DNA from: Desulfomonilia bacterium
GTDB lineage: Bacteria > Desulfobacterota > Desulfomonilia > UBA1062
Assembly (NCBI GenBank): GCA_036567785.1
Contig: DATCTV010000004.1
Span: 124,001 to 188,000 of the forward strand
DNA: 64,000 bases
Direction of reading: 5' to 3'
Positions 15,023 to 21,194 of this stretch are shown here, in pieces (within the stretch, counting starts at the first letter, position 1; the number at the start of each line of letters is the position of its first letter). A program made the translations under genes and the position numbers. Under the pieces are notes generated by a model that did not search any database, was not told the DNA's origin, and saw only the letters and a program-made list of their open reading frames with translations.

Positions 15023-15340
15023 ATGAAAGACTGTCTCTTTAAAATATTGTTGGTTCTTGCGCTGGCGCTCCCGGTCTCAGTCCAGGTTTATGCTGCACCG
15101 TTCCATTACAGCGATATTTACGGTCAATATGATATCAATATATCCACGACAGAACCCTATATCGCATTCGATGGCCGGGCTGATACAGAAAACACATATG
15201 TCATATATGGACAGACAGCTGCTCTTCCCGATGGAAACAGGCCGATAACCTCTGCTCCCGTCCCTGAACCGATGACTCTTGTCCTTTTCGGCATAGGCAT
15301 GATCGGTATAGGCTTTCTTGCAAGAAAAGGAACAATATAA
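15023..15340 (+). CDS. Very small PEP-CTERM sorting-signal protein
   Basis: A 105-residue exported protein: signal peptide 1-24 (cleavage after VYA), a mature region of only about 55 residues, then the exosortase sorting signal beginning VPEPMTLVLFGIGMIG and ending in the basic tail ARKG. Such proteins are cut and anchored by exosortase (XrtA) in biofilm/EPS-forming Gram-negatives. No exosortase gene lies in this window, but an XrtA-type polysaccharide deacetylase does (38518). AAAGGAGG precedes the ATG by eight bases. The following PilZ gene starts 45 bases after its stop. Function of the mature part is unknown. Confidence 0.85.
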   Translation: MKDCLFKILLVLALALPVSVQVYAAPFHYSDIYGQYDINISTTEPYIAFDGRADTENTYVIYGQTAALPDGNRPITSAPVPEPMTLVLFGIGMIGIGFLARKGTI

Positions 15341-15355: not shown

Positions 15356-15385
15356 ATGTTTGAACCTACAAGCGGGTGGATGTAA
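15356..15385 (+). CDS. Possible nine-codon leader peptide before the PilZ gene
   Basis: AAGGTGGAG is followed by ATG 15356 and nine codons (MFEPTSGWM) ending in TAA at 15383-15385. The stop overlaps the ATG of the PilZ gene as TAATG, the arrangement used for translational coupling. It could also be chance, since only nine codons are involved. Confidence 0.25.
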   Translation: MFEPTSGWM

Positions 15386-15756
15386 TGCCCAGAATCAGCA
15401 AAAATACTGTAACCTCCCTGAAGCTGGCCGGTATATTACTTGAAAATCGCCTTGAGAACAGAGGTAAAGATCCGGTCTCAGAAAATGAAAAGGCCCCAGC
15501 TCAGAATGATCGACGAAAGGCGAAACGTCTCAACCTTGAAAAGGACATAATGTTCAGACATGCCAACGGCAAAAATGCTTTCGGCCATATAATAAATATC
15601 AGCAGAAGAGGAATGTACATCATAACAGACACACCTCTTGATAACGGCGAAGAAATCCATGCGAACCTTTTTCGGGTAAACCTCAAGGGCATTACAGGCA
15701 TCGATGGCCGCATCGTAAGAAAGGGAGATAACGGGGTCGCGGTCCGTTTTGTCTGA
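15385..15756 (+). CDS. PilZ-domain protein, candidate c-di-GMP receptor
   Basis: A 123-residue soluble protein with a single PilZ domain (about residues 40-123). The c-di-GMP-binding signature is visible: basic RRKAKR followed by NISRRGMYI, close to the RxxxR and (D/N)xSxxG consensus, and GRIVRKGDNGVAVRF at the end. It would act as a c-di-GMP effector for motility or matrix production. It follows the PEP-CTERM gene, which fits a surface or biofilm context. The start is uncertain: ATG 15385 overlaps the stop of a nine-codon leader frame, and a GTG at 15376 is possible. Confidence 0.8.
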   Translation: MPRISKNTVTSLKLAGILLENRLENRGKDPVSENEKAPAQNDRRKAKRLNLEKDIMFRHANGKNAFGHIINISRRGMYIITDTPLDNGEEIHANLFRVNLKGITGIDGRIVRKGDNGVAVRFV

Positions 15757-15961
15757 AGAGAAACGAGCACTCAATATCGCAAATATCCTTAATTACTGAA
15801 AAACCATATTCTTCTTTAAAAAAAACCATTTTTGTCCATAACCATTGCACTTTAGAACCGGTTTAATACAATTGGTTCTCAATCATTATTGACTGATCCT
15901 TTTTTTTAAGCATAAAGTCATACATGACTGAACAGCCATTCATTTTGTAAAGGAGAAGGAT

Positions 15962-17512
15962 ATGAGCAACATTATCAGCAGGGATACAATCGGAGACATT
16001 ACAAGAAAGGCAGCCACAAAATACGGGGACAAGACAGCCATTATTTTCAGGGATATAAAACTTTCTTATTACGAACTTGAAAAAGAGGCTAGGCGCTTCG
16101 CGAATCTCATGACCAGTTACGGAATAAAGAAGGGTGACAGGGTAGCCATTTATTCCTACAACTCTCATTACTATCCCATCAGCATGATTGGTCTTTCGAA
16201 AATCGGCGCAATACAGGTTCCCATAAACTACATGCTGAACGCCGAAGAAATCGCATATATAGTCAATCATTCCGGTTCCAGGTTGTTCATCGTCGAAGAT
16301 GCGCTCTACCCCATCATTGCTAAGGCCCAGGACAAATTCACCACTGTCGAAAAATGGGGTTTTCTTCCTCTTGCGGATACAGAGATACCGGCTGGCTTCT
16401 TCAACCTCATAAAAGAAATGGAATCGATGAATTATGATGAGTCCTATGTAGAGGTGAATGCGGAAGACATAGCCCAGATTCCATACACGAGCGGTACGGA
16501 GTCCAAGCCCAAAGGGGCAATGCTCTCACACCGTGCGCTCATGTCGGAATATTACAGCTGCATATTTGACGGCCAGTATGACACCTATGATGTAAGCCTT
16601 AACGCCCTGCCGCTCTTCCACTGCGCACAGCTGCACTGCTTCCTGATGCCGTACCTTTATGTGGGTGCAACCAATGTCATCATGCACAAGGCAGACCCTC
16701 TTGAGATGATCAGGGCAATCGAAAAGTATCAGATAACTCATACATTCGCACCTCCTACCGTCTGGATTGGCATTCTCAACCATCCCGAATTCAAGAACCA
16801 CAACCATAGCAGCCTGAAGAAGGCTGCCTACGGGGCCAGCATCATGCCGGTTGAAATAATAAAACAGCTCTCGGTCGCTTTCAGGGGTTTGAAGCTCTGG
16901 AACTATTACGGCCAGACCGAAATGGGTCCGGTCGCGACAATACTGAAGCCCGAAGACCAGCTTTTAAAGCCCGGCTCCGCAGGCAAGCCTGTCCTTAATG
17001 TCGAAACGAGATTGATGGATTTTGAAGGCAATTTCGTTCCGAACGGTGAAGTGGGCGAGATAGTCCACCGCTCAGGGCAGGTCATGACCGGATATCTCAA
17101 TGACCCTGAAAAAACCGCAGAAGCGTTCGAGTACGGATGGTTCCACAGCGGAGATCTCGGCCGCTTCGACGAAGACGGATATCTTTATGTCGTTGACCGT
17201 AAAAAGGACATGATCAAGACAGGCGGTGAAAACGTCGCATCACGTGAGGTCGAGGAAGTGCTCTACAAGCATCCCGGCATTGAAGAGGTGGCAGTAATAG
17301 GCCTCCCCGATCCCAAATGGATCGAAATCGTAGCGGCAGTGATCGTTCCGAAAAAGGGCATTGTCCTTTCAGAAAAAGACATCATCTCATTCTGCAAGGA
17401 AAACCTCGCCGGATTCAAATGCCCGAAGAAAATTCATATCACGGACAAACTGCCGAAGAACCCTTCCGGAAAGATATTAAAGCGCGAACTGAAAGAGGAA
17501 TTGGGGAAATAA
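15962..17512 (+). CDS. AMP-forming fatty acyl-CoA ligase
   Basis: A 516-residue member of the ANL adenylating superfamily that activates a carboxylic acid with ATP and CoA. The P-loop-like motif is YTSGTESKPKGAMLSHRAL, the A5 motif YYGQTEMGP, the hinge DRKKDMIKTGGENV and the catalytic C-terminal Lys lies in NPSGKILKREL. It is closest in style to medium/long-chain fatty acid-CoA ligases of the FadD13/FadK kind. AAAGGAGAAGG lies before the ATG. UbiA starts 30 bases after its stop and the radical SAM gene follows with overlap, so it is the first gene of a three-gene operon. Whether it feeds beta-oxidation or supplies an acyl group to the operon's product is open. Confidence 0.88.
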   Translation: MSNIISRDTIGDITRKAATKYGDKTAIIFRDIKLSYYELEKEARRFANLMTSYGIKKGDRVAIYSYNSHYYPISMIGLSKIGAIQVPINYMLNAEEIAYIVNHSGSRLFIVEDALYPIIAKAQDKFTTVEKWGFLPLADTEIPAGFFNLIKEMESMNYDESYVEVNAEDIAQIPYTSGTESKPKGAMLSHRALMSEYYSCIFDGQYDTYDVSLNALPLFHCAQLHCFLMPYLYVGATNVIMHKADPLEMIRAIEKYQITHTFAPPTVWIGILNHPEFKNHNHSSLKKAAYGASIMPVEIIKQLSVAFRGLKLWNYYGQTEMGPVATILKPEDQLLKPGSAGKPVLNVETRLMDFEGNFVPNGEVGEIVHRSGQVMTGYLNDPEKTAEAFEYGWFHSGDLGRFDEDGYLYVVDRKKDMIKTGGENVASREVEEVLYKHPGIEEVAVIGLPDPKWIEIVAAVIVPKKGIVLSEKDIISFCKENLAGFKCPKKIHITDKLPKNPSGKILKRELKEELGK

Positions 17513-17542
17513 CATGGCAGAAGATAACAGGAGGCAACCAGC

Positions 17543-18475
17543 ATGACGACAAGAACCGCTTCATTCAACATCTCGGACTGGACTACTGCCATGAGGATAC
17601 CTTTCGCTACAGTCGCTGTTGTGCCGTTCTGTGTAGGGATTCTGCTGGCAATCTTCAACGGCGTGCCGGTATCATTGCCTGCATCGATTTCGGGAGTCAT
17701 AGCGGTTTTCCTTATATGCACGGGATGCCACCTGATAGGTGAAACGGCCGATAAGGCCGAAGATGCGATAACCCTGAAAACGGGCCGGACAAAATTCTCA
17801 GGAGGCACACTATCGGTAGTGCAGGGCAAGCTGAATGAAAAAAAGGTAATGAAAGCCGCTTTTGTCTGTTTTACTGTTTCAGCCATTCTTGGCGGTATTA
17901 TCTTTTACATCCACAGATCGTTCTGGCTGGTAGGACTCGGCTCCTTTGGAGCCGCGGCCGCGATATTCTATTCCATGCCGCCCGTAAGGCTTGCCAAGCG
18001 TGGAATGGGCGAGCTTGTCATTGGCGTATGCTACGGATGGCTCACAATTGTTACGGGTTATGCATGCGCATCAAACACAATGCCGCCGGATTCGTATATC
18101 TGGTGCTGGCCGGTTGCGCTTACGGTATTCAACATCATTCTCATAAATGAATTCCCGGATTACATACCTGACTCGACAACCGGCAAAAGAAATATCGTGG
18201 TCAGGATAGGAATGGAAAAAAGCCAGTGGATATACACATCCGCATCAATCCTTACCGGGATATCAATATTCAGCATCTGGTTAAGGTACAGGCCATTTGA
18301 GTTTGCCTTTCTTGCTGTGGCATTACCCGGTATTTTGCTTTCCTTTGCACTTGCATACCTTGTTGCCGTAAAAAAATTATGGAAATCACACAGCACGATC
18401 GAGCCGGTATGTGCGCTCACAATAGTGCTCAATCATATATCATCCATAACGATAGCGCTCCTGGTAAGATGGTAG
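17543..18475 (+). CDS. UbiA-family prenyltransferase
   Basis: A 310-residue integral membrane protein with about eight or nine hydrophobic segments. It belongs to the UbiA/MenA superfamily, which transfers a prenyl chain from prenyl diphosphate to an aromatic or other acceptor. The first acidic motif is present in variant form as GETADKAEDAITLKTGRTKF, and the second as NEFPDYIPDSTTGKRN, the positions that bind magnesium diphosphate. AGGAGG precedes the ATG at 17543. It overlaps the radical SAM gene by seven bases. The acceptor cannot be predicted: a quinone, haem-like or lipid acceptor are all possible. Confidence 0.83.
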   Translation: MTTRTASFNISDWTTAMRIPFATVAVVPFCVGILLAIFNGVPVSLPASISGVIAVFLICTGCHLIGETADKAEDAITLKTGRTKFSGGTLSVVQGKLNEKKVMKAAFVCFTVSAILGGIIFYIHRSFWLVGLGSFGAAAAIFYSMPPVRLAKRGMGELVIGVCYGWLTIVTGYACASNTMPPDSYIWCWPVALTVFNIILINEFPDYIPDSTTGKRNIVVRIGMEKSQWIYTSASILTGISIFSIWLRYRPFEFAFLAVALPGILLSFALAYLVAVKKLWKSHSTIEPVCALTIVLNHISSITIALLVRW

Positions 18476-19734
18476 TTGCCCCCTATTTATCCGTTCATAA
18501 TCTCATCAGACAGTTCGCTTCATCTCTCCTGCTGATGAGGACCGCCAGATGGAAACACTTTCCATTGTGGCTCTCTAAAAACGCCTGGAAATCCATACCT
18601 GTTGCAGGAGGTGCTGTCGGTATGGGCTGCATCGGTTTCGGATATCATGCGGTATGGGAAGTGACTGAAGCATGCAATCTCAGGTGCAGGCATTGCCATG
18701 CAACCAGCAGCGTGGCATCCCCGGATGAGCTCGACACCATGGAGGGCTTCAGGCTGCTTGAGCAGATATACGGGCTCAAGGGCTTCCAGATGCTCGCATA
18801 TTCGGGAGGAGAACCGCTTGTAAGAAAAGATATCAATGACCTTCTTGCATATGGAAAGAAGCTGGGACTTGTCAATGTAATCGCTACTAACGGCACATTG
18901 ATCGATTATCCGCGTGCAAAAGAGCTGAAAAAACTTGGCGTAAAAGGCGTAGCCGTAAGTTTCGACTCCACAGACCCACAGATACATAACAGTATCAGAC
19001 AGAGTCCTACAGCGTTTGACCGGGCTATAAGCGGAATAGAGGCGTGCAGGAAGGCCGGGATAATCGTTCAGCTCAACTATACTGCGATGAAAGAAAATAT
19101 TGAGACACTGCCCGAAGTGGTGAAGTTCGCACATGATGTCAATGCGGCAATCATGCTCTGCTATCAGCTCGTACCTATGGGAAGAGGCGGCGCTATTGCA
19201 TGTTCTGCTCTTTCTCCCGAGGACAACAGGCTACTTATGAAAAGCATAAAAGAGCTTCAGTCCGATGCGGTCACCATCGTCGAGCCGGTTGCAGGTCCGC
19301 AGTACTGGCCTCACCTTCTCGGCAGGGACAACAATGACCCAAAGCGTCTGATAAAACACAGCCTTTTCCACGGCTGCGCGGCAGGATGGGGCCTCATATA
19401 CGTCAAGCCGAACGGTGATGTATGGCCCTGCCCGTTCGTCCCCGTGAGCGGCGGGAATGTAAGGTCTATGGGCCTTTCAGATATTCACAGAAAAAGTGAC
19501 ATATTTTTTAAACTCTCAGACAGGGACAATCTGAAAGGCAAATGCGGCGAATGCGAAAACAGGCACATATGTGGCGGTTGCCGGGGAAAGGCGTATGCAG
19601 CCTTCGGGGACGCTCTGGAAACAGATCCCACATGCTACAGTCACCATACTGTAATGCCCCAATATCTGAAATGGTCTTCTAACGGTGCATTTTTTGGCGA
19701 TACGCCCGGAGGAGGCACAGGAACCTGCGGCTGA
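18469..19734 (+). CDS. Radical SAM/SPASM enzyme coupled to UbiA
   Basis: A 421-residue radical SAM protein. I start it at ATG 18469, which overlaps the UbiA stop (ATGGTAG); a longer frame from 18379 would run inside UbiA. The SAM cluster motif CNLRCRHC (CxxxCxxC) is followed by YSGGEPL. The C-terminal SPASM-type region has CAAGWGLIYVKPNGDVWPCP, CGECENRHICGGCRGKAY and a final Cys near DPTCYS, enough to bind auxiliary Fe-S clusters. The Gly-rich tail ends GTGTCG. SPASM enzymes modify peptides, tetrapyrroles or other substrates; it resembles haem-pathway (AhbC/NirJ-like) proteins in layout, but no peptide gene is next to it. Confidence 0.85.
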   Translation: MVVAPYLSVHNLIRQFASSLLLMRTARWKHFPLWLSKNAWKSIPVAGGAVGMGCIGFGYHAVWEVTEACNLRCRHCHATSSVASPDELDTMEGFRLLEQIYGLKGFQMLAYSGGEPLVRKDINDLLAYGKKLGLVNVIATNGTLIDYPRAKELKKLGVKGVAVSFDSTDPQIHNSIRQSPTAFDRAISGIEACRKAGIIVQLNYTAMKENIETLPEVVKFAHDVNAAIMLCYQLVPMGRGGAIACSALSPEDNRLLMKSIKELQSDAVTIVEPVAGPQYWPHLLGRDNNDPKRLIKHSLFHGCAAGWGLIYVKPNGDVWPCPFVPVSGGNVRSMGLSDIHRKSDIFFKLSDRDNLKGKCGECENRHICGGCRGKAYAAFGDALETDPTCYSHHTVMPQYLKWSSNGAFFGDTPGGGTGTCG

Positions 19735-19769: not shown

Positions 19770-19799
19770 ATGACAATCAGGCATCATTACTGATATAAT
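19770..19799 (+). promoter_or_regulatory. Sigma70-type promoter candidate
   Basis: ATGACA (19770-19775) and TATAAT (19794-19799) are 18 bases apart, with the start codon of the endoglycoceramidase-like gene 28 bases beyond. Consensus match only. Confidence 0.55.
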
Positions 19800-19826: not shown

Positions 19827-21194
19827 ATGAGGAAGACAAAGGGGTCATTTTTTATCCTGACGGTTACGGTGCTGCTGATGCTATGCGCCTGCAGAAACAG
19901 CTTCGAGCGGCAATATATAACGGATGATCAGGGTCGCGCCTTGATACTTCACGGTCTTAATGTCAGCTGCTCTTCGAAATATTACGAGGACAGGGTCGGC
20001 TGGACCAAGAAGGAAGATATCCTGAGAATGTCCCGCGACTGGGGGTTTAATTTCGCCCGTATGCTTGTGCTGTGGGACGGTATCGAACCCGAGAAGGGCG
20101 TATTCGATGAGGCCTATCTTGACAGGATTGCAGAACGCCTCGGCTGGTATGAAGAGGCGGGCATACATGTTGTCCTCGATATGCACCAGGACCTCTATTC
20201 CATACACTTCGGCGGTGACGGGGCCCCATCCTGGGCTATCGAAGACAACGGCTGGGCGTTCGAATATCATAACCCCTGGTCGATCAACTATCTTGCACCA
20301 GCCGTAATCGCCGCATTCGGTAACTTCTGGGATTATGAGAATCCCGAATATGCCTATCTGCAGGAACATTATACAATGGCGGTCATGAAGATTGTAGAGC
20401 GCTTCCACGACCATCCGGCTGTAATAGGCTATGACCTGATGAACGAGCCCTACCCTGGCTACCATAAGCCTTTTACCTTTGAATCTCAGGTGCTCAGGCC
20501 TTTTTATGAAAGACTGACAGCGGCCATCAGGACTGTAGATAACGACAACTGGGTATTTTTCGAGCCGATTGCCATCCCGGTAAACCAGGGAACACCCTCA
20601 TATCTGGGAGTTGTCAAAGACGTCAGGCCCGGAGGGGACAGGCTTGCATACTTCCCTCATATATATGCCTTCAGCCTGTCCACCATCCTGCTGTGGGAAG
20701 AAACCAGGAAGAATGAGGCGGCCAGACAGCAATCCCCAATGCTTATCGGTGAACTTGGCTTCTCCGGTAACGGAACCGCAGCCGACACATATCTGAAACA
20801 GGTCATGGCAATGGCGGACCGCACCACAAGCGGCTGGGCGTACTGGTCTTATGACGTCGATCCGATGGGTGTAATAAACGCTGACGGGAGCGAACAGACA
20901 AAGATGAACGACCTTGTCAGGGTATATCCGAAGGCGGTGGCAGGTTTTCCAACCAGCTACGACTACAATCCGAATACCCGGAAATTCGTTCTTGTTTTCA
21001 ATGAAACCGGGGTCAATGCTCCTACCGAAATTTACATACCTGCAAAGCGTTTCTTCCCTGAAGGATGGAAACTTGAAACAAGCGACCCGGCAGGCTCGTG
21101 GTCAAGCGAATGGAACGCGGAATCGGAAGTGTTGAAGGTTTACACAGACCCGAATCAGGCGGTTCATACTATAAAAATATCGCCCGAAGTTTGA
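19827..21194 (+). CDS. Endoglycoceramidase-like GH5 lipoprotein
   Basis: A 455-residue glycoside hydrolase family 5 protein with a lipoprotein signal ending LMLCAC. The stretch LDMHQDLYS and the following GGDGAPSWA are hallmarks of the endoglycoceramidase branch, which cuts the bond between oligosaccharide and ceramide in glycosphingolipids. The acid/base Glu lies in LMNEPYPG (E207) and the nucleophile in IGELGF (E309); WAYWSYD closes the barrel. A C-terminal beta domain (about 370-455) is typical for this branch. GAGGAG precedes the ATG and a terminator follows, so it is transcribed alone. Related GH5 members act on other glycolipids (for example steryl glucosides), so the substrate is probable, not proven. 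Confidence 0.83.
   Translation: MRKTKGSFFILTVTVLLMLCACRNSFERQYITDDQGRALILHGLNVSCSSKYYEDRVGWTKKEDILRMSRDWGFNFARMLVLWDGIEPEKGVFDEAYLDRIAERLGWYEEAGIHVVLDMHQDLYSIHFGGDGAPSWAIEDNGWAFEYHNPWSINYLAPAVIAAFGNFWDYENPEYAYLQEHYTMAVMKIVERFHDHPAVIGYDLMNEPYPGYHKPFTFESQVLRPFYERLTAAIRTVDNDNWVFFEPIAIPVNQGTPSYLGVVKDVRPGGDRLAYFPHIYAFSLSTILLWEETRKNEAARQQSPMLIGELGFSGNGTAADTYLKQVMAMADRTTSGWAYWSYDVDPMGVINADGSEQTKMNDLVRVYPKAVAGFPTSYDYNPNTRKFVLVFNETGVNAPTEIYIPAKRFFPEGWKLETSDPAGSWSSEWNAESEVLKVYTDPNQAVHTIKISPEV

Follow-up and report, generated by a model that had tools for sequence, protein, structure and literature searches.

A conserved pair of genes was found in a 64,000-nucleotide stretch of DNA from a Desulfomonilia bacterium (GenBank assembly GCA_036567785.1, contig DATCTV010000004.1, positions 124,001 to 188,000). 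This whole stretch is called the window, and its source genome is 3.96 Mb. The first gene of the pair encodes a predicted UbiA-superfamily prenyltransferase, and the second encodes a radical S-adenosylmethionine (SAM) enzyme with a SPASM domain. That the two genes form a real two-gene module was well supported. They are conserved as a pair, their active sites are intact, the two proteins co-evolve as judged from their sequences, and a distinct phylogenetic profile was observed among the bearers. The module is apparently new to the literature, and no paper joining UbiA, radical SAM, SPASM and prenyltransferase was found in the literature searched. We suggest, with a probability of roughly 0.4, that the two enzymes together tailor a new polyprenylated, redox-active (quinone-like) membrane lipid in anaerobic bearers that are without markers of the two known menaquinone routes. 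The genes at the locus are as follows.

15962-17512, + strand: AMP-forming acyl-CoA ligase of the PRK08316 type, 516 amino acids (Pfam and NCBIfam)
17543-18475, + strand: predicted UbiA-superfamily intramembrane prenyltransferase, 310 amino acids (Pfam, tree, AlphaFold model)
18469-19734, + strand: radical SAM/SPASM enzyme, 421 amino acids (Pfam, score gap, tree, model)

Conservation of the UbiA and radical SAM gene pair

An earlier note on this DNA had described the three genes as one packed operon with a 30-base gap and a seven-base overlap. This layout was confirmed at the noted positions. The ligase and UbiA genes are separated by exactly 30 bases (17513-17542), and the UbiA stop and the radical SAM start overlap by exactly 7 bases (ATGGTAG, 18469-18475). 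The domain assignments of all three genes were well beyond chance, and all lay over the curated Pfam cut-offs. The scores were 306 bits for AMP-binding and 80 bits for AMP-binding_C in the ligase, 75.8 bits for UbiA (cut-off 34.2), and 91 bits for Radical_SAM and 29 bits for SPASM (cut-off 21.5) in the third protein. A mechanical list of open reading frames gave an alternative, longer start for the radical SAM gene at 18379. The start at 18469 was favoured because the closest relative (L033/L056) begins at the equivalent position.

The conserved unit consisted of the UbiA and radical SAM genes. Among 60 relatives, the genomes with a pair-type radical SAM gene had a UbiA gene of the same type immediately 5' of it. 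The radical SAM protein was present in 10 of the 42 genomes of the class, each with a score of at least 506 bits. The next best radical SAM protein in the class scored 296 bits, and this gap indicated that the ortholog group was sharply bounded. When about 85,000 species genomes were scanned with the radical SAM alignment, 68 loci of the group were obtained, which is a lower bound because the scan relied on two exact peptide motifs; a scan with UbiA alone gave no matches. The taxa named in the record titles were Deltaproteobacteria/Desulfobacterota, Myxococcota, Bacteroidetes/Kapaibacterium, Aminicenantes, Clostridia, Chloroflexi, Armatimonadetes and Actinomycetota, so that the pair spans about eight phyla. 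The archaea yielded no member of the pair, as the scan's matches there were only 35-37% identical over the radical SAM core. Nearly all the pair-bearing genomes were metagenome-assembled, and the bearers were apparently anaerobes, as judged from named relatives.

The gene order was also conserved. UbiA lay on the same strand, at most 400 bases 5' of the radical SAM gene, in 69 of the 71 loci with at least 1 kb of upstream sequence. Five loci were listed twice in this set, and both exceptions were one locus (L069 = L179) with a radical SAM gene and no adjoining UbiA. Counted by distinct loci with sufficient 5' sequence, the pair therefore co-occurred everywhere except at this one. The converse case, a pair-clade UbiA with no adjoining radical SAM gene, was seen once in genome G048 (L037, 9495-10418). 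The distances among the UbiA proteins and among the radical SAM proteins were strongly correlated over 66 loci (Mantel r = 0.89; 0 of 999 permutations as high), from which it is concluded that the two proteins co-evolve. No third conserved gene was found within 10 kb of the pair. The neighbour families that several loci had in common were ordinary genes of related Syntrophaceae and were rejected as partners. The earlier view of the pair as a conserved set outside any standard pathway was thus borne out.

The ligase was not part of this conserved unit. It was of an ordinary PRK08316 type, was not adjacent to the pair at any other locus, and was rejected as a member of the module. In the closest relative (G008), a divergent enoyl-CoA hydratase gene sits 5' of the pair instead. 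In two Desulfomonile relatives (L093/L117 in G024 and G034), the pair was located amid genes of a branched-chain-amino-acid-type ABC transporter and an acyl-CoA ligase. Of the products that had been proposed, a prenylated or acylated cofactor, quinone or lipid, the prenylated quinone-like or lipid-like one is the best-supported guess. Acylated chemistry had no support from conservation, because the ligase was not beside the pair elsewhere.

The two proteins and their setting in the window

The features of the two proteins are listed below.

17738-17764, + strand: first Asp-rich motif of UbiA, residues 66-74, (G/N)E-x2-D-x3-D in place of the usual ND-x2-D (alignment of 50 pair UbiAs)
18146-18172, + strand: second Asp-rich motif of UbiA, residues 202-210, NE(F/Y)PD-x3-D (N202, E203, D206 and D210 in 50/50)
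18469-18627, + strand: family-specific N-terminal extension of the radical SAM protein, with two predicted helices at residues 9-25 and 31-46 (model)
18628-18630, + strand: extra invariant Cys54 (GMGCIG) before the radical SAM motif (65/65 sequences)
18673-18696, + strand: CxxxCxxC radical SAM cluster motif, C69/C73/C76 (66/66 sequences)
19375-19635, + strand: SPASM domain with C303, C321, C359, C362, C368, C371 and C389 (alignment)

In the first motif, D70 and D74 were present in all 50 pair UbiAs and E67 in 49, and residue 66 was G in 46 and N in the other four. Judged from this alignment, both Asp-rich motifs are intact. The AlphaFold model had a mean predicted local distance difference test (pLDDT) score of 95.2. 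Its nearest solved folds were archaeal UbiA homologues and UBIAD1, which is the human menaquinone-4 synthase. Superposition on 4tq4 gave Z = 23.8 over 276 residues with a root-mean-square deviation of 3.7. The Pfam match, the all-helical fold of the model and the two motifs identify the protein as a UbiA-superfamily intramembrane prenyltransferase, and prenyl transfer as its reaction class is supported by the motifs and the modelled fold.

The UbiA protein did not belong to a familiar branch of the superfamily. A quick tree with long reference branches was built with E. coli UbiA, MenA and CyoE, plasmid-borne MenAs, BchG and other UbiAs of the relatives. The pair UbiAs formed one group, with support of 91 in the approximate likelihood ratio test (SH-aLRT), beside yet outside the group that contained MenA. 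BchG and CyoE clustered with E. coli UbiA and apart from the pair UbiAs. The closest profile models were MenA, ChlG and UBIAD1, not DGGGP synthase, and the protein was below the cut-off of every MenA model (81.9/264, 70.6/277, 58/225 and 36.9/102 bits). The BchG/ChlG models gave 27-39 bits, far below their cut-offs, and the CyoE model gave no match at E 0.001. The grouping with MenA or with COX10-type (CyoE) enzymes that had been named earlier as refuting was therefore not seen. Most bearers, the window genome included, also encode a second, MenA-like UbiA. This second gene was observed directly 3' of ruvB at L045 (9242-10144; G000:C61) and at L194 (6539-7438; G005), the latter in the order ruvC-ruvA-ruvB-UbiA-epimerase, and this link between a prenyltransferase and Ruv genes was recurrent.

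The radical SAM protein also formed its own clade (SH-aLRT 98; pLDDT of the AlphaFold model 89.4). It did not group with the AhbC- and AhbD-like enzymes encoded elsewhere in the window genome, a placement that the earlier note had named as refuting. The NCBIfam models for radical SAM proteins began to match only near residues 56-61, downstream of the N-terminal extension. Amphipathic membrane helices were considered for this extension, and they are not claimed because the hydrophobic moments were unconvincing. The seven SPASM cysteines were invariant wherever the region was covered (62-65 sequences), and this full pattern predicts two auxiliary [4Fe-4S] clusters. The set of clusters is thus indicated by the conserved cysteines, and the substrate and the reaction can be proposed only by analogy.

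At the locus itself, the ligase and the pair are probably transcribed together. A candidate promoter was located upstream of the ligase by a consensus scan.

15889-15918, + strand: candidate promoter, TTGACT-18-TAAAGT (weak; the total count of such sites was not above that in shuffled sequences)

Further upstream on the + strand are genes for a small PEP-CTERM protein (15023-15340) and a PilZ-domain protein (15376-15756). Downstream, 92 bases after the radical SAM gene, lies a + strand gene (19827-21194) for a lipoprotein of glycoside hydrolase family 5 (GH5) that resembles endoglycoceramidase I, with 197 bits against an equivalog cut-off of 700. This gene has a strong promoter-like site of its own at 19770-19799 and is therefore probably separate from the radical SAM transcription unit.

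Quinone markers of the bearers and the proposed product

The quinone pathways were profiled in 394 Desulfobacterota genomes that were at least 90% complete, with MqnA/MqnD scored as PF02621. The radical SAM protein was present in 17 genomes and MqnA/MqnD in 233. Both were present in none, where about 10 were expected (hypergeometric 1.5e-7, phylogeny ignored). In 50 further bearers across phyla, other Desulfobacterota included, PF02621 was found in none and MenD in one. MenD over the cut-off was found in 0 of the 60 relatives, and the window genome had neither a PF02621 match nor MenD over the cut-off. UbiE/MenG was over the cut-off in 51 of the 60 relatives, and the ten bearers in the class were all among these. 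A PF02665 protein, the membrane subunit of the NarI/DsrM/HdrE type, was present in 17/17 bearers, although it was also common overall (328/394), so that p was only 0.04. Characterised PF02665 members exchange electrons with quinones or methanophenazine. Because all 17 bearers keep such a protein, they seem to employ a redox lipid in the membrane, and yet the markers tested for the two known routes to menaquinone are missing from them. Across G001-G041, most genomes of the window's family were without MqnA/D and MenD yet kept UbiE and the NarI/DsrM-type subunit, whether or not they carried the pair.

The neighbours of the pair at other loci were suggestive of a quinone context, each coming from one or two lineages, and most loci had no such neighbour. 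At L178 = L133, UbiA, the radical SAM gene and UbiE were arranged in this order on one strand (UbiE 225 bits, cut-off 158). At L092/L184, glpBC of the anaerobic glycerol-3-phosphate dehydrogenase ended 71 bases 5' of UbiA, and at L116, sdhA/frdA and frdB ended about 120 bases 5' of it. A formate-dehydrogenase-like gene was located directly 5' of the pair at L101, and a CydA-like gene 6 kb from the pair at L185.

We infer a route to a redox lipid in the following order. Prenyl transfer and radical SAM chemistry as such are backed by well-established enzyme families with unbroken motifs; the redox nature of the product, the order and the exact reactions are all proposals. UbiA, with Mg2+ at its two Asp-rich motifs, would move a polyprenyl group from its diphosphate onto a small head group, either aromatic or heteroaromatic. 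The radical SAM/SPASM enzyme would reduce SAM at the CxxxCxxC cluster and remove a hydrogen atom from the head group once it is prenylated. The two auxiliary clusters might then relay an electron, resulting in an oxidative change such as a decarboxylation or the removal of a side chain, comparable to the action of AhbD, AhbC and NirJ on precursors of haem. Finally, a UbiE/MenG-type methyltransferase would complete the ring. This last step is suggested by the single UbiA-rSAM-UbiE locus and by the presence of UbiE in each of the ten bearers in the class.

Several observations weigh against a new redox lipid. Two enzymes are not enough to build a ring, and no pathway for the head group was recognised. 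The linkage to UbiE came from one lineage of about 68 loci, and most pairs stood alone. The exclusion of MqnA/D was not significant when stratified by family (p = 0.11; the family tallies were read by hand from a listing that left out 46 genomes with no match), and most of the signal lay between families. Mutual exclusion as a strong law within families was therefore not supported, and lifestyle may be the cause. The set of 50 bearers lacked completeness figures and background rates of MqnA/D and MenD for the other phyla, and one of its members, Smithella SDB_sulfate1 (G444), was positive for MenD. Other members of the window's family were without MqnA/D and MenD and kept UbiE and PF02665, and they had no pair; the pair is therefore not a general answer to the missing quinone. 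In addition, the second MenA-like UbiA could serve the salvage of scavenged naphthoquinone, and such salvage or a fermentative lifestyle could cause the profile.

Other products were weighed against the same data. The pair may make or modify a membrane lipid that has no redox role, such as a structural lipid with an isoprenoid tail or a compound like a hopanoid or ether lipid. UbiA would then prenylate a polar acceptor, and the radical SAM enzyme would form or cleave a C-H or C-C bond in the lipid. The UbiA superfamily includes the archaeal DGGGP synthase, and the structures 6m31 and 7bpu are close, but the pair UbiA was nearest to other families in its profile. The radical SAM protein was distantly similar to the archaeal tetraether synthase (7tol/7tom); however, this likeness was limited to about 240 residues of the common radical SAM barrel. 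An SRD5A-family (PF02544) reductase gene, of the family of polyprenol and steroid double-bond reductases, lay directly 5' of the pair in two Actinomycetota (L095, 734-1495; L118, 1362-2123). On this reading, the missing menaquinone genes would mirror fermentative life only. The colinear UbiE of one lineage and the quinone-linked neighbours favour quinones, and we consider a non-redox lipid unlikely. The late tailoring of an ordinary menaquinone or naphthoquinone, scavenged or otherwise made, into a modified low-potential menaquinone would require no new head group. It would agree with the retention of UbiE and, usually, of the second MenA-like UbiA in the bearers, but a second dedicated prenyltransferase would not be needed, so we regard it as rather improbable. 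Louie and Mohn reportedly found in 1999 that Desulfomonile tiedjei, a member of the same class, requires 1,4-naphthoquinone and contains, in place of menaquinone, an unidentified quinoid.

The nearest families of the radical SAM protein raised two further products. In the case of a prenylated or lipid-linked tetrapyrrole, the radical SAM enzyme would edit a side chain of a haem-like molecule, and UbiA would prenylate it as haem O or chlorophyll synthase does. The best NCBIfam matches were TIGR04053, AhbD and NirJ2 (261, 261 and 250 bits), the ChlG/BchG models matched UbiA weakly (35-39 bits), and chlorophyll synthase was the second solved relative. However, the equivalog cut-offs of the haem enzymes were missed by about half or more (AhbD 261/500, AhbC 184/650, NirJ 160/515), that of TIGR04053 was also missed (261/395), and no haem gene neighbours were recognised in the pair loci examined. 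The haem or haem d1 route was rejected on these cut-offs and on the separate AhbC- and AhbD-like genes, and together with the position of BchG and CyoE in the tree they make a tetrapyrrole improbable. A ribosomally synthesised and post-translationally modified peptide (RiPP), matured by the SPASM enzyme and then prenylated or exported by UbiA, is very improbable. The closest solved structures of the radical SAM protein were peptide maturases (PqqE, SuiB and SkfB), but a Pfam scan found no RiPP recognition element (RRE) or PqqD domain in it, and no small open reading frame common beyond near relatives was found within 600 bases of the pair. Both results argue against peptide maturation, and this reading was rejected. 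To our knowledge, no RiPP prenyltransferase described so far is a UbiA-type enzyme.

A broader form of the proposed redox lipid is that the pair marks a new class of isoprenoid-based redox carriers. These would be matured through radical chemistry and would take the place of menaquinone in numerous anaerobic lineages that at present count as having no quinone pathway (Syntrophaceae/Smithella, Desulfomonile relatives, Aminicenantes, Anaerolineae, Dehalococcoidia and others). This we hold to be possible but doubtful.

Comparison with known systems

The pair provides an easily searched genetic marker in lineages without a known quinone pathway. It predicts both the enzyme classes, prenyl transfer and radical chemistry with auxiliary clusters, and the genomes of interest. 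If the redox lipid is true, it would help to explain the membrane enzymes of the NarI/DsrM, glycerol-3-phosphate, succinate/fumarate and bd types in anaerobes free of menaquinone genes, syntrophs included. If it is not, the pair would still identify an unassigned lipid or cofactor pathway across about eight phyla.

Among known systems, the enzymes MenA, MqnP and UbiA of the menaquinone and ubiquinone pathways have the same fold and two Asp-rich motifs, and the pair UbiA is likewise expected to transfer a prenyl chain to a head group. A UbiE-type methyltransferase is also present in the bearer genomes, as in the quinone pathways. In contrast, the pair UbiA is a separate clade with the first motif (G/N)ExxDxxxD and missed the MenA cut-offs. 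In addition, no men or mqn genes lie beside the pair, and MqnA/D was absent in every bearer genome tested. For the radical SAM protein, the nearest curated families are AhbC, AhbD and NirJ of siroheme-derived haem and haem d1 synthesis and TIGR04053, which have the same full-SPASM architecture. This likeness points to small-molecule rather than peptide chemistry. However, the N-terminal extension, the invariant Cys54 and its own clade set the pair protein apart from AhbC, AhbD and NirJ.

The routes to methyl-plastoquinone and O2-independent ubiquinone in Nitrospirota and Desulfobacterota (PMC13386864 and works cited there) are similar in their unexpected taxa and in their UbiA-type and UbiE-type enzymes. 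They use ubiA-E, -G, -X and ubiTUV or mpq genes (PMC13386864); the term 'radical SAM' never occurs in that text. In the same study of more than 26,000 bacterial genomes, many lineages were devoid of known quinone pathways, and it was suggested that further quinones remain to be discovered (Chobert et al. 2026, PMC13386864). Methanophenazine of Methanosarcina is a prenylated redox lipid that is not a quinone and is thought to be made with UbiA and UbiE homologues (PMC6315138). As a general kind, the pair would belong with isoprenoid cofactor biosynthesis.

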